Origin: Mobilicoccus massiliensis
GTDB taxonomy: Bacteria; Actinomycetota; Actinomycetes; Actinomycetales; Dermatophilaceae
Direction: 5' to 3'
DNA length: 64,000 nucleotides
Assembly (NCBI RefSeq): GCF_000826525.2
Contig: NZ_LN651331.1
Coordinates: 682,026-746,025, forward strand
Shown here: positions 11,760 through 18,019 of the stretch, piece by piece
Layout of the letters: each line of letters opens with the position of its first letter
Numbering within the stretch: the stretch's first letter is position 1
The notes under the pieces: generated by a model
Told to the model about the DNA's origin: nothing
Seen by the model: the letters and a program-made list of their open reading frames with translations, nothing else
The model's database searches: none
Translations under genes and position numbers: made by a program

Positions 11760-11975
11760 GAGGACTCCTGGAGGACGATCGGTGGCGGTGCCGGTGCGTC
11801 TCCTCGACGACGGAACCGACCACGACGGTAGCGGACGGGACAGAGAAAGCCGGCGAAACCGGGGCGTCGGACGGCGAGGGGCGCGGTATCCCACCGGTGC
11901 GGGTGCCCGGTGCGCGCGAGTCCTGCCCTCCCTTACGGTGAGGCAGTCCGCATCGCCGCACCTCGAGGAGACGCC

Positions 11976-13778
11976 ATGTCCCACCGCACCCTGCTGTCGT
12001 GGCTCTCCGCGAGCATGCGTGAGAACTCCGGCCTCGTCGCGCTGCGGGTGCGACGCGAGGGCCGCTGGCACACGTGGAGCTACCGGGAGCTCGACGAGCT
12101 CTCCTCCCGGCTCGCGGTCGCGTTCCTCGACCTCGGCCTGTCGCAGGGTGACCGTGTCGCGATCCACGCCGGCAACAGCCCGGAGTGGACCGTCGTCGAC
12201 ATCGCCTGCCTCAAGGCGGGCCTGGTCAGCGTTCCGGTGTACACGACCAACACCCCCTATCAGGTGGCGCACGTGCTGCGCGACAGCGGAGCCCGGGCCG
12301 TCGTCTGCGGCACGGCCGGTCTGCTCGAGGTCGCGAGCGAGGCGATCGCGGTGCTCGACGAGGAGGCCAGGCAGGAAGGTGACGACGGTGCGAGGGTGCA
12401 GCGCCTGATCATGCGGGGTCCGGTTGCCGGGGTGCCGGCGATCACCGACCTCATCGCCGCCGCACCTCCCCTGGCCGAGATCGCCGACGACCTCGCGGAG
12501 CGCGCGGCCCGGCTGTCACCGGATGACATGGTGACGATCATCTACACCTCCGGAACGACCGGCGATCCCAAGGGTGTCGTCATCACCCACCGCATGCTGT
12601 GCCACCAGCTCGCCGCCATCGCCACCCGCTTCGAGATGCCCCGGGGCGAGCGCAACATGTCGTTCCTGCCGCTCAGCCACGCCTACGAGCGGGCGTGGAC
12701 GTACGTCGTGCTCGCCGCCGGCATGGAGAGCTGTTCGGTGACCGACCCGAAGGCCGTCGCCGCGGCGATGATCGACATCCAGCCGTCGACGTTCGTCTCG
12801 GTCCCGCGCCTCTACGAGAAGGTCTACGCCGGCGCGCACGCCAAGGCGGGACACGGGCTCAAGCGGGGGATCTTCGACTGGGCCGTGCGCGTCGGCGGCA
12901 TCGTCGAACTGCGCCGGGCCGCGGGACGTTCGATCTCTCCCCTCCTCGCTGCCCAGCTCGCGATCGCCGACCGGCTCGTCCTGCGCAACGTGCGGGCGGC
13001 CGTGGGCGGGCACAAGTACGTCATGGCTGCGGGCGGGGCGCCTTTGCGACGCGAGGTCGAGGAGTTCTTCCTCGCCGCCGGATTACCCGTCTACCAGGGG
13101 TACGGTCTCACCGAGACCGCGCCCATGGTCTCGTGCAACGCGCCCGGGATGACGCGGTTCGGCACGGTCGGCAGGCCGGTGCCCGGCACCCTGGTCCGCA
13201 TCGCGGCCGAGACCGGCGAGGTGCTCGTGCGCGGCGACAACGTCACCCCGGGCTATTACGAGCGGCCGGAGGAGACCGCTGTCGCGATCGACGACGACGG
13301 CTGGTTCCACACCGGCGACGTCGGCTACCTCGACCGCGACGGCTATCTCGTCATCACCGACCGCATCAAGGACCTCATCGTCACCACCCAGGGCAAGAAC
13401 GTCGCCCCCGGCCCGATCGAATCGGCCCTGGCGGCCGATCCCCTCGTCGAGGCGGCACTCGTCGTCGGTGACGGCCGCCCCTACCTCACCGCCCTCGTCC
13501 AGCCCTCGTTCGACGACCTCGAGGCCCACGCCCACGCGCAGGGGTGGCGGTTCGAGACCCACGAGGAACTCCTCGCCCTCGGCGAGGTCGAGGCCTACTA
13601 CGACGACCTCGTGGGCCGCATCGGCCGCAACAGCGCCAAGTACGAACGCATCCAGAAGTTCCGTCTGCTCGCCGATCCGCTGACGATGGACGCCGGTGAG
13701 CTCACCCCCACGCTCAAGGTGCGCCGCCGCCCCGTCGAGCAGCGTTACGCCGCGCTCATCCGCGAGATGTACGCCTGA
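11976..13778 (+). CDS. AMP-dependent long-chain fatty-acid-CoA ligase (FadD15-like)
   Basis: A 600-residue ANL-superfamily adenylate-forming enzyme. The AMP/phosphate loop is YTSGTTGDPKGVVITH (about residues 189-204). The adenine motif is GYGLTETAPMVSCN, the hinge region reads YLVITDRIKDLIVTTQGKNV, and the C-terminal catalytic lysine region is ELTPTLKVRRR. The GKNVAPGPIE version of the hinge and the length fit the bacterial long-chain acyl-CoA synthetase group rather than short-chain or aryl ligases. It activates fatty acids to acyl-CoA with ATP, probably at the cytoplasmic membrane face. The ATG at 11976 is preceded by a GAGGAG ribosome-binding site 5 nt upstream; longer frames starting near 11910 lack one. 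It is convergent with the DUF445 gene, 13 bp away. Confidence 0.93.
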   Translation: MSHRTLLSWLSASMRENSGLVALRVRREGRWHTWSYRELDELSSRLAVAFLDLGLSQGDRVAIHAGNSPEWTVVDIACLKAGLVSVPVYTTNTPYQVAHVLRDSGARAVVCGTAGLLEVASEAIAVLDEEARQEGDDGARVQRLIMRGPVAGVPAITDLIAAAPPLAEIADDLAERAARLSPDDMVTIIYTSGTTGDPKGVVITHRMLCHQLAAIATRFEMPRGERNMSFLPLSHAYERAWTYVVLAAGMESCSVTDPKAVAAAMIDIQPSTFVSVPRLYEKVYAGAHAKAGHGLKRGIFDWAVRVGGIVELRRAAGRSISPLLAAQLAIADRLVLRNVRAAVGGHKYVMAAGGAPLRREVEEFFLAAGLPVYQGYGLTETAPMVSCNAPGMTRFGTVGRPVPGTLVRIAAETGEVLVRGDNVTPGYYERPEETAVAIDDDGWFHTGDVGYLDRDGYLVITDRIKDLIVTTQGKNVAPGPIESALAADPLVEAALVVGDGRPYLTALVQPSFDDLEAHAHAQGWRFETHEELLALGEVEAYYDDLVGRIGRNSAKYERIQKFRLLADPLTMDAGELTPTLKVRRRPVEQRYAALIREMYA

Positions 13779-13794
13779 GCCGGTCGACGGCTCA
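13776..13794. terminator. Small hairpin spanning two convergent stop codons
   Basis: A 7-bp perfect inverted repeat (TGAGCCG / CGGCTCA, loop GTCGA) fills the gap between the acyl-CoA ligase and the DUF445 gene. The left arm begins with the TGA stop of the ligase and the right arm ends with the TCA that is the TGA stop of the opposite gene. It may act as a minimal bidirectional terminator, but no T-tract follows on either strand. Confidence 0.4.
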
Positions 13795-15042
13795 GAGGGC
13801 GAGCTGACTGACCGTGTGGATGAGCAGACCCGCGAGGCCGCCGACGACCGTGCCGTTGATGCGGATGAACTGCAGGTCGCGGCCGACGTGCAACTCGATG
13901 CGGTCGGCGGCCTCCTTGCCGTCCCACCGTTCGATGACCTGCGAGATGACCGGCACGAGTTCGGCTCCGTAGGTGTCGACGAGGCCGGCCAGCACGTCCC
14001 CCGCCCGCCGGTCGACACGCGCGCGCAACTCGGCGTCGTGCTGCAGCCGCTCCCCCAGCGACACGAGCTCGGTCTGGATCCGCGTGCGCAGACGACCCTC
14101 GGGATCGTCGAGCGACTCGACGAGGGTGCGACGCAGGATGCCCCACAGGCTCATCGCGGTGTCCATCGTCTGCGGGTGGAGCAGGAAGGTCTCCTTGAGC
14201 TCCTCGGCGCGCCCCATGGTGGAGGGGTCCTCCTGGAGGTTGCGGGCGAGGTCGCGCAACAGGTCGTCGACGGCGAGCCGCATGCGGTGCCGCGTGTCGT
14301 CGCGCACGTCGCGCACCCATTTCAGGGCCTCGGTGTGCAGCCGGTCGACGACGATCGAGTTCACCCACAGCGGCGTCCACGTCGGTGCTCGTTCCCCGAC
14401 CACCGAGGCGAACTTCTCCGGGTTGTCGAGCAACCAGTCGTGGGCCTCGACGACGACGAGGTCGACGAGGCTGCGATGGACGTCGTCGTCGACGACCTGC
14501 TCGAGCAGGGTCCCGGCCAGGGGCGCGATCGGTTCGCGGACGAGCCGCGGCAGCACGGAGTGTTCGACGAGTTCGCGCACCTCGCCGTCGGAGACGTGGT
14601 CGAGGGCACGGGTGGTGAGCCGGGCCCCGTGGACCACCACCCGCTCGCTGTTCGCCGGTACCGCGAGCCATCGCCCGAACCGGACCGTCGCACCGGAGCC
14701 GAGGAAGCGCTCACGTGCCGCCTCGCCCGTGAGGAAGTGGCCCGCGACGAAGTCCTCGAGCGACCTCGCGAACACGTCCTTCTTGCGCGGGACGAGCGCG
14801 GTGTGCGGGATCGGCAGCCCCAACGGATGCCGGAACAGTGCGGTGACGGCGAACCAGTCGGCCAGGGCGCCGACCATCGCGGCCTCGGCCGTCGCGTTGA
14901 CGTACCCGAGTGCGCCGTCGCGATGCAGAGTGAGCGCGAACACGACGATCGCGAACACGAACAGGGAGGTCGCGACGGTCCGCATCCGGACCAGTCCTCG
15001 TCGGCGTTGCTCGTCGGCCTCGGTGAGCGCGATGGTCGTCAT
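13792..15042 (-). CDS. DUF445 family membrane protein
   Basis: A 416-residue member of the DUF445 family (YjiN-like), of unknown biochemical function. A first membrane segment lies at about residues 22-40 (TVATSLFVFAIVVFALTLH). It is followed by the conserved EAAMVGALADWFAVTALFRHPLGLPIPHTA motif, here at about 53-82, which is the family hallmark. A long, mostly helical region of ~280 residues follows, and a C-terminal membrane segment (ING then VVGGLAGLLIHTVSQ) closes the protein. It stands alone between convergent and tandem neighbours, so context gives no functional hint. Confidence 0.9.
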   Translation of the reverse strand: MTTIALTEADEQRRRGLVRMRTVATSLFVFAIVVFALTLHRDGALGYVNATAEAAMVGALADWFAVTALFRHPLGLPIPHTALVPRKKDVFARSLEDFVAGHFLTGEAARERFLGSGATVRFGRWLAVPANSERVVVHGARLTTRALDHVSDGEVRELVEHSVLPRLVREPIAPLAGTLLEQVVDDDVHRSLVDLVVVEAHDWLLDNPEKFASVVGERAPTWTPLWVNSIVVDRLHTEALKWVRDVRDDTRHRMRLAVDDLLRDLARNLQEDPSTMGRAEELKETFLLHPQTMDTAMSLWGILRRTLVESLDDPEGRLRTRIQTELVSLGERLQHDAELRARVDRRAGDVLAGLVDTYGAELVPVISQVIERWDGKEAADRIELHVGRDLQFIRINGTVVGGLAGLLIHTVSQLAL

Positions 15043-15075: not shown

Positions 15076-15786
15076 TCAGTGACCGTGCGGCGCGTGCATC
15101 CAGATGCACACGTCGAGATGGCGCAGCAGGTGGCACGGGTCGCCCACGTCCACGGCCTCCGACTCCGACACGCGGTCGATGAGCCGCTGCAGCCGCTCGC
15201 GGACCTCCTCGTCGCCGATGATCCGCGCGAAGACCTGCCAGTCGATCTGGTAACGCGACGGCCACGTGCCGAGGTACCGGCAGACGACCTCGTCGCGCAC
15301 GGGGAACAGGTCGGGGCGCTTGCGTGCGCACAGTTTGGCCGCGGTGACCCAGTTGACCGCGTAGCGGTCGCGCGCCGGGGGCACGAGCGAGCGCAGGGTG
15401 ACGTAGAGCTCGTCCATCGCGGCGAGCAGTTCGGGGGTGACGTTCTCCAGCCGCGCGTCGAGCGGCAGCCGGTCCTCCGAGAGCAGGCTCTCGACCCGCT
15501 CCATCATCTCGCCGTCGTCGAGCAGCGCTCGCACCGTGGCCGGTGGAACCGTGACGTCGAGCAGGCTCACCGCGAGCAGATCGCGGTCGGTGACCCGCGT
15601 CGGCGCGTCGTCGGCGAGCTGGGTGAACGTGGCGCCGGCGTAGTTGCTGCGCCGGTCGTAGTAGCGCGCGAGGCGTTCGGGGGTCCGGGGATCACGCAGC
15701 ACGGTGAGCGCCCGGTCCAGGGCTCCCGCGTAGAACGGTTCGGCGCGTCGCCAGTCCGACGGGACGGGCAGCGTGAACTCCGGCAT
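15076..15786 (-). CDS. Uncharacterised actinobacterial protein (DUF6308-like)
   Basis: A 236-residue soluble protein with no signal peptide or membrane segment. The N-terminal half contains YYDRRSNYAGATFTQL and LLAVSLLDVTVPP, and the C-terminal half contains VNWVTAAKLCARKRPDLFPVRD followed by VCRYLG. This pattern resembles the actinobacterial family I know as DUF6308; the family number is from memory and should be checked. The RPDLFPVRD piece recalls helix-hairpin-helix-linked proteins but no catalytic motif is evident. The protein ends in HAPHGH after a Cys/His-containing segment. It lies 33 bp upstream of the DUF445 gene in the same direction, so co-transcription is possible. Confidence 0.6.
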   Translation of the reverse strand: MPEFTLPVPSDWRRAEPFYAGALDRALTVLRDPRTPERLARYYDRRSNYAGATFTQLADDAPTRVTDRDLLAVSLLDVTVPPATVRALLDDGEMMERVESLLSEDRLPLDARLENVTPELLAAMDELYVTLRSLVPPARDRYAVNWVTAAKLCARKRPDLFPVRDEVVCRYLGTWPSRYQIDWQVFARIIGDEEVRERLQRLIDRVSESEAVDVGDPCHLLRHLDVCIWMHAPHGH

Positions 15787-15925: not shown

Positions 15926-18019
15926 TCAGGAACGGCCCGTGAGAGACATCCAGCGCTTGTACTCGCTCGAGGCCTTCGGGTTGTACCCGGTGAACAGGTC
16001 CGAGCGGATGTAGCCGTCGGTCTCGTCGAAGTAGCTCTCGTAGGCGATCCAGTCGCGGTTCTTCATCATCCAGTCGTAGACGAAGTTGATGTACTTGGGG
16101 TTGTCGCCGCCGCTCGCGGGGTTCGCGCGGGCGATGCCCCACTCGGGCAGGACGAACTTCTTGCCGTGCTGCTTGGCGAAGTCGAGCCAGAAGTTCCAGC
16201 CGTAGGCGCCATCGCGGTGCTTGGCGATGTTGGCGTCGGTCGTGTAGCCGGGCCACCAGTCGTAGGCGTCCATGCCGATGTAGTCGACGTAGGCGTCACC
16301 GGGGTAGAACACTCGCGCGTCCGGCGTGCCGGTCTGACCGGCGCCCTCGTTGACGACCCACGCGATGCGCAGGTTCGGGCCGCCCTTGCGGATGGCGCCG
16401 ACGGCCTGACGGTAGGCGGCCTTCCAGTCCTCGGCGGTGTTCGCCCAGGCGGCGGCCTTCCAGCCGGGGAGGTTCATCTCCCAGCCCAGGCGGATGTAGG
16501 CGTCGGGGTACTCCGCGGCGATGTTGCGGGCGAGCCGTTCCCACTGGGCGTTGTAGCCGCCGGCCTTGGCCGTGGCGAGGTTGCCGTCGTTGGGCCACAG
16601 CGGCACACCCACGTCGAGGGTGCCCCGGTAACCGGCCGGGATGCGCTCGTTGTCCATGAACCACGTGCTCTGCATGGAGTTCCAGGACTCACGGCTGGGG
16701 AACACGGTGATGACATCGACCTTGCGACCGCGGTTCTGCTCCCACTTCGTCACCTCACCGGCCCGGTTCATCGGGTACATGCCCGAGTCCCAGTACATGC
16801 CCGAGAGGGCGCCCGCACGGCCCTTGGGCTGTCTCTTATACCAATCTGACGCTGCCGACGAATAGAGAGGCGTCGTGGGAGCCGGGTTGGTCGGAGCCGG
16901 GTTGGTCGGAGCCGGCGTCGAGGCGTTGCCGATGCGGGTCACCACGAGCGAGGAGAGCAGGCCCGAGTCCACCTTGCCGATCCACTTGAGGTCGAGACGT
17001 CCGTCGGAGACCTTCGTGCGGAACGTGCGGTCGTAGGCGGTGTCCTTGCCCGCGGCCTTGAAGATGTCGACGTCGGCGAGCACCTTGTCGCCCTCGGCGT
17101 ACACGTCGAAGACGCGCTGCCCGGCCTTGGTCCACCAGCCCTCGCGCATCTTGAGCGTCACCTCGTACGTTCCGTTGGCCACGGGGCGCGTGAGGGTGTT
17201 CATGCGCACCATCTCGGGACGGTACAGCTCGGCGTCCTTCGTGTTCTTGATGGTGGCACCGTCCCAGTAGGACAGCGAGTAGTCGCCGCGGTCGAACCCG
17301 GAGGCCGCCTCGTAGGTGTTGCCCGCGCTGTCCTTGACTGCGTGGGGGTTGACGCTCATCCGGCCGACGACGGTCCGCGTCTCAGGCGTCGTGGGCGCGG
17401 GGGTCGGGCTCGTCGTCGGAGCCGGCGTCGTCGGCGTGGGTGCCGGGGTCGTCGGCGCGTCGGCGATACGGGTGACCTCGAGGGCCGAGAGCAGCGCCGA
17501 GTCCTTCTTGGCCGGGAAGGCGAGGTCGAGTCGGCCGTCCTTGACCGTGACGTCGAAGCTGCGGTCGTAGGCGGCGTTCTTGCCCACGGCCTTGACGATG
17601 TCGATGTCGCTGAGCTTGGTGGCCCCCTCGGCGGTGACGCCGAACACGCGGGCGCCGGCCGATCCCCACCACATCTCGCGCATCTTCAGCGTGACGCGGT
17701 AGGTGCCGTTGTCGACGCGGCGCGACCACGTGTCGAAGCGGACGAGCTCGGGGTAGTAGAGGCGGGAGTCGGCGGCACCCTTGATCGTGCCGGAGGTGAA
17801 GGACTGCGAGAAGTCGCCCTTGGCGAAGCCGCTGCGGCCCTCCCACTTCTTGCCGTCGGAGGTGGTCAGGGCGTCGGGGGCGACGGTCATGCGGAAGGTG
17901 TCACCGACGGCGGCCTGTGCCGCGTTCGTCGTGAGCACCGCCGAGGTGGCGGTCGCCGAGAGGGCGAGCGCGACGACGGTCAGCACGGAGGCAGGGCGAA
18001 ATGGCGCGAATGTACTCAT
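15926..18019 (-). CDS. Secreted malectin-GH26 glycoside hydrolase (chimeric in this assembly)
   Basis: A 697-residue predicted exoenzyme. A Sec signal peptide covers about residues 1-35 (hydrophobic core VLTVVALALSATATSA, then AAQA). Two tandem beta-rich modules follow at ~38-185 and ~215-370. They share the patterns LYYPELVRF / LYRPEMVRM and GTYRVTLKMREMWW / GTYEVTLKMREGWW and resemble malectin-type carbohydrate-binding domains. Pro-Thr linkers separate the modules. The C-terminal ~300 residues are GH26-like, with Glu514 in RLGWEMN as likely acid/base and Glu626 in LPEWGI as likely nucleophile. Residues ~384-397 (the stretch SSAASDWYKRQ and its flank) are translated Nextera adapter, not real protein, so linker length and contiguity are unreliable. 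The ATG at 18019 is chosen because the signal peptide starts there; the frame is open to 18082. The likely role is hydrolysis of a mannan-like or endogenous exopolysaccharide, given its neighbours. Confidence 0.8.
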   Translation of the reverse strand: MSTFAPFRPASVLTVVALALSATATSAVLTTNAAQAAVGDTFRMTVAPDALTTSDGKKWEGRSGFAKGDFSQSFTSGTIKGAADSRLYYPELVRFDTWSRRVDNGTYRVTLKMREMWWGSAGARVFGVTAEGATKLSDIDIVKAVGKNAAYDRSFDVTVKDGRLDLAFPAKKDSALLSALEVTRIADAPTTPAPTPTTPAPTTSPTPAPTTPETRTVVGRMSVNPHAVKDSAGNTYEAASGFDRGDYSLSYWDGATIKNTKDAELYRPEMVRMNTLTRPVANGTYEVTLKMREGWWTKAGQRVFDVYAEGDKVLADVDIFKAAGKDTAYDRTFRTKVSDGRLDLKWIGKVDSGLLSSLVVTRIGNASTPAPTNPAPTNPAPTTPLYSSAASDWYKRQPKGRAGALSGMYWDSGMYPMNRAGEVTKWEQNRGRKVDVITVFPSRESWNSMQSTWFMDNERIPAGYRGTLDVGVPLWPNDGNLATAKAGGYNAQWERLARNIAAEYPDAYIRLGWEMNLPGWKAAAWANTAEDWKAAYRQAVGAIRKGGPNLRIAWVVNEGAGQTGTPDARVFYPGDAYVDYIGMDAYDWWPGYTTDANIAKHRDGAYGWNFWLDFAKQHGKKFVLPEWGIARANPASGGDNPKYINFVYDWMMKNRDWIAYESYFDETDGYIRSDLFTGYNPKASSEYKRWMSLTGRS
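16829..16870 (-). other. Embedded Illumina Nextera i5 adapter with index (assembly artefact)
   Basis: Positions 16829-16861 read as the reverse complement of the Nextera read-1 transposase adapter. Thirty-one of 33 bases match; the only difference is CA instead of AC at 16842-16843 or so. The next eight bases (16862-16869, ATAGAGAG) are the reverse complement of the standard i5 index S502 (CTCTCTAT), and 16870 is the G expected next. On the minus strand the order is index, adapter, mosaic end, then genomic CCCAAGGGCC, which is exactly the order at the start of a sequencing insert. The sequence keeps the GH26 frame open, so it passes unnoticed in translation. It joins directly to a Pro-Thr repeat linker where misassembly is easy. 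Confidence 0.95.

Follow-up and report, generated by a model that had tools for sequence, protein, structure and literature searches.

The gene and its linker

The window, that is, the whole 64,000-nucleotide stretch of Mobilicoccus massiliensis DNA that we analysed (site G000:C5:682026-746025, within a 928,804-base contig of the 21-contig assembly of this 3.84 Mb genome), carries on its minus strand a gene at 15926-18019, the start of which resembles, by eye, a putative signal peptide. Its predicted product comprises two malectin domains, Pro/Thr linkers and a GH26-like catalytic domain, and inside one linker lies a short stretch of sequencing-library adapter. That this stretch sits at a Pro-Thr linker had been recognized from the letters alone, and we place it between the malectin part and the catalytic domain. 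The features along the gene are, in window coordinates:

15926-16828, minus strand: GH26-like catalytic domain, C-terminal (89% identity to G002 across 293 residues and to G001 across 299)
16829-16847, minus strand: Tn5 mosaic end, 19 bases, adjoining the insert of the library molecule; 16842-16843 swapped relative to the standard sequence, which is printed in PMC11921620 and PMC10528933
16848-16861, minus strand: Nextera read-1 (S5) tail, 14 bases, exact (PMC11921620)
16862-16869, minus strand: i5 index S502, exact (PMC11921620 and PMC10528933)
16870, no strand assigned: ambiguous base, either the last P5 base or genomic linker; by-eye comparison with the nearest relative favours genomic
16871-16928, minus strand: Pro/Thr linker, malectin side; borders drawn by eye, true length uncertain
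16929-18019, minus strand: N-terminal part with two malectin domains and the first linker (two stretches matching PF11721)

The N-terminal part was tested as 16871-18019 and as 16917-18019. A perfect 15-base tandem repeat occupies 16878-16915, adjoining the adapter stretch. For the catalytic domain, the best solved relative is endoglucanase H (2bv9, 7e-8), of which we take the matched chain to be the GH26 domain. The label GH26, given to the gene by the sequence-only reading, is acceptable, although its Pfam support is weak (20.2 bits for Glyco_hydro_26 at a cut-off of 20.2 bits, against 29.8 bits for PF00150). PF02156 was not reported at E 0.001 with the whole protein as query, and a plasmid search with the gene as query returned no match.

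Sequence, order and orientation of the adapter stretch

On the plus strand, the Nextera read-1 adapter (the mosaic end plus its 14-base tail) appears as its reverse complement at 16829-16861, with two mismatches, and the i5 index S502 follows at 16862-16869, likewise reverse-complemented and exact (8 of 8 bases). Both mismatches form one adjacent pair, 16842-16843, in which AC is read as CA; the mosaic end thus carries 17 of its 19 standard bases, and the S5 tail that immediately follows it carries 14 of 14. In an ungapped alignment with the full S502 oligo, as printed in PMC11921620 and PMC10528933, the 41 bases from 16829 agree apart from this swap, and the order along the minus strand is index, S5 tail, mosaic end and then insert. 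The sequence-only reading had described a 33-base Nextera read-1 match interrupted by two swapped bases, in the order and orientation of a library molecule on the minus strand, and both descriptions hold. It had also proposed that S502 was followed by the next adapter base: the index is exact, whereas position 16870 could be either adapter or genome.

Beyond the index, three of the first four bases agree with P5 (a match, a mismatch and two matches) and later agreement is scattered, so that contiguous agreement with the P5 expected of an S502 adapter remnant stops after the single ambiguous base at 16870. In practice a missing P5 is not defining for such a remnant, because other adapter copies commonly end soon after the index.

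No further match to the 33-base adapter with up to three mismatches was found in the 64 kb window beyond 16829-16861, and none of 100 shuffled controls contained one. The number of 33-mers expected by chance with up to two mismatches is 8e-13 (64 kb, both strands, base composition of the window) and, with the index attached, approximately 5e-17 if the number of standard i5 indices is assumed to be 17. These estimates refute a native linker that happens to resemble the adapter, a reading to which the variable length and sequence of the linker among relatives lends something but which we consider vanishingly improbable; the stretch is, moreover, AT-richer and badly adapted in its codons inside a Pro/Thr linker, and ranks third lowest in codon adaptation among the 683 13-codon windows of the gene (windows overlapping the stretch counted). 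Its GC content alone is not decisive; among the 63,960 41-mers of the window, 181 do not exceed it in GC, a count that takes in its own neighbourhood.

Across the whole genome, the mosaic end (up to three mismatches) matched once, at the adapter site in this gene, and P5, the i7-side adapter and the TruSeq adapter, each searched with up to three mismatches, had no match in the 3.84 Mb. The site lies well inside its contig, whose nearer end is approximately 230 kb away, and is not flanked by an N gap. The engineered Tn5 transposase recognizes the mosaic end, a fact that, with the preserved reading frame, speaks for a real chromosomal insertion in the strain, for example of a Tn5-based construct. 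However, the S5 tail and i5 index are parts of sequencing libraries (as given in PMC11921620 and PMC10528933), a single mosaic end leaves no transposon body between two ends, and five of the five relatives aligned are without the stretch. On the last two counts we reject a natural or engineered Tn5 insertion, and we regard any real insertion as extremely improbable.

Orthologues and the predicted protein

The protein was searched in 58 genomes, its own included, of which 13 matched, and the five best orthologue loci outside its own genome (L003-L007) were aligned. The inserted peptide, or anything similar, was found in none of these five, and an adapter match in none of the three congeners (G001-G003); comparison with orthologous genes, proposed beforehand as a check, thus upholds an artefact. 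In three genomes (G002, G001 and G016) both halves of the gene lie in a single open frame with matching neighbours on either side: the order of two upstream neighbours is the same in each genome; on the downstream side, all three share the gene at 13792-15042, G002 and G001 alone share the gene at 11910-13778, and G002 alone has the one at 15076-15786. On this arrangement the flanks belong together and the two halves are collinear, with only the join in the linker being wrong; the earlier caution that the halves might not be contiguous is therefore not supported. A wrong join of unrelated loci was considered separately and is ruled out by the collinear orthologues.

The linker itself is hard to assemble, as the assembly of the congener G003 breaks there, with contig C121 ending just past the second malectin domain and C164 beginning within the linker. 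By eye, and from the nearest relative (L003) only, five bases would lie between the flank ends, or, the linker being repetitive, five plus a multiple of three, and this number would account for the frame surviving an insert of 41 bases. None of the other relatives shows a clear register with the linker at this point, and in the four orthologues measured the linker runs from 19 to 51 residues, with its sequence also varying among relatives, so that its true length in this gene is uncertain. The suspicion that sequence is missing between the flanks is accordingly reasonable for the linker, on the L003 comparison, and does not extend to the halves, which are collinear.

Besides 13 whole codons (LYSSAASDWYKRQ), the adapter supplies two bases of the Pro codon before them. 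The gene stays open across the stretch, as the sequence-only reading had stated, yet the added residues number 13 rather than the 11 that it gave. The predicted protein thus contains 13 spurious residues and a linker of unreliable length, and models, alignments or synthetic genes built from it would inherit the error. The significance of the finding is limited to data hygiene, with no biology left to explain.

Adapter copies elsewhere and the origin of the stretch

Searches of other assemblies listed at least 120 adapter loci in genome contigs and at least 120 in viral contigs. Among the matches listed, 120 of the 126 in genome contigs have 40 or fewer bases to the contig end, and for 115 of the 120 in viral contigs the fetched stretch, not in every case the whole contig, ends at most 40 bases further on. 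The index ATAGAGAG accompanies 8 of the 126 and 4 of the 120, respectively, again among the matches listed. In G523, of the same family, there were 71 adapter matches, and the 21 listed are all exact; six loci in this genome (L284, L286 and L288-L291) all carry the index ATAGAGAG and lie close to a contig end.

Internal copies were also recovered. On the 2.42 Mb scaffold C1 of G499 (same family), all three copies (L283, L285 and L287) are internal, carry the index ATAGAGAG, as does the present stretch, and sit 43, 99 and 151 bases ahead of an 11-N gap; at L164, the adapter, its index and three bases are followed by NN and then other sequence; and a 204 kb contig of G236 contains, internally, an exact adapter followed by its index and five P5 bases, the surrounding 1.5 kb being free of N. 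Three altered Nextera copies each were observed in G196:C1 and G416:C1 (contigs of 3.4 and 3.9 Mb; L146, L147, L151 and L153-L155), well away from the ends of these contigs; the fetched stretches contain no N.

The swapped pair was seen nowhere else: it was carried by none of the 126 genome-contig matches listed in a scan with a pattern that allowed it (all were standard), by none of the other 14 adapter places in 396 phylum genomes and by none of the matches listed in 186 family genomes; the exact swapped 33-mer was not found in viral contigs, nor the swapped mosaic end, on either strand, in the literature searched. Within what was searched, then, the swap is not a recurrent adapter variant, and it probably arose as an error private to a single read or oligo. 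With VecScreen-like scoring, comparison with the index-free adapter gives the stretch a score of 21 (33 for an exact copy), and comparison with the full S502 oligo gives 30. Such screening reports internal matches from approximately 23 and treats them as strong from 30. The swap may be one reason why trimming and screening missed the stretch, and we suggest that adapter screens should tolerate small changes and include indices.

Internal copies might more generally be the altered ones. In the searches with up to three mismatches, 8 of the 10 internal copies in G499, G236, G196 and G416 carry one to three mismatches (9 of 11 with the present copy), against 3 of the 7 terminal copies in the search of 396 phylum genomes; the internal tally comes from five genomes, a small sample, with the 71 matches of G523 left out. 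It is possible, although we would put the chances slightly below even, that altered copies are over-represented among the adapters surviving inside long public contigs, exact ones being removed by trimming and by screening at submission. If so, a screening blind spot would leave invented peptides in the linker regions of annotated proteins.

Together, these results indicate that the stretch is almost certainly a remnant of a Nextera library adapter left in the assembly, as the sequence-only reading had concluded in describing an adapter and i5 index assembled into the gene. The adapter and its index, their order and orientation, their uniqueness in the genome, their lack in relatives and the collinearity of the flanks support this directly; against it stand the inexactness of the copy, its internal position, the lack of an N gap and a P5 of at most one contiguous base. 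Contig-end adapter tails can become internal once contigs are joined, as G499, L164 and G236 suggest by direct parallel, and the present case is best read, by analogy with them, as a join of that kind in which the gap has been closed. Short-insert Nextera fragments from 16828 (minus strand) would have been read through into the mosaic end, tail and index, and we infer that trimming missed one or more of these read ends. An adapter tail would then have formed the end of the contig at the GC-rich, repetitive and presumably poorly covered linker, and an assembler, scaffolder or gap closer (the exact step being, like the low coverage, our inference) would have fused this tail, with no Ns between, to the far side of the linker, so that 41 adapter bases took the place of a few native ones.

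The junction could instead have been made at the bench, if an adapter-tagged strand was fused through its index end to a second fragment from this linker during tagmentation or PCR. Such a chimeric library molecule would be an adapter remnant all the same, and falls within the near-certainty expressed above, but real reads would hold the whole junction. The linker is repetitive, agreement with P5 ends near the index, and the agreement of genome and P5 at three of four bases there could allow a template switch. Nevertheless, a three-of-four match is weak, adapters beside scaffold gaps were seen directly in G499 and L164, and contig-end adapters are far commoner among the matches listed, so we consider a chimera unlikely and the joined contig-end tail the better account.

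In the titles and abstract openings of the papers listed, Nextera remnants inside prokaryote genes were not found as a subject; PacBio adapters are discussed as a possible cause of misassembly in PMC4134206. Compared with the Nextera (XT) S502 read-1 adapter, the stretch shares 41 bases that are arranged and oriented alike (index, S5 tail, mosaic end, insert), and differs in one adjacent-base swap within the mosaic end and in a P5 of at most one contiguous base. The tails seen where contigs of public assemblies end present the same adapter pointing outward, usually followed by an i5 index, but are exact (by the pattern searched) and mostly terminal, whereas the present copy is altered and internal. 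Although the G499 copies stand beside N gaps and several of the copies are followed by degraded P5, neither of which holds here, the internal copies of G499, G236, G196 and G416 lie, like the present one, within long contigs.
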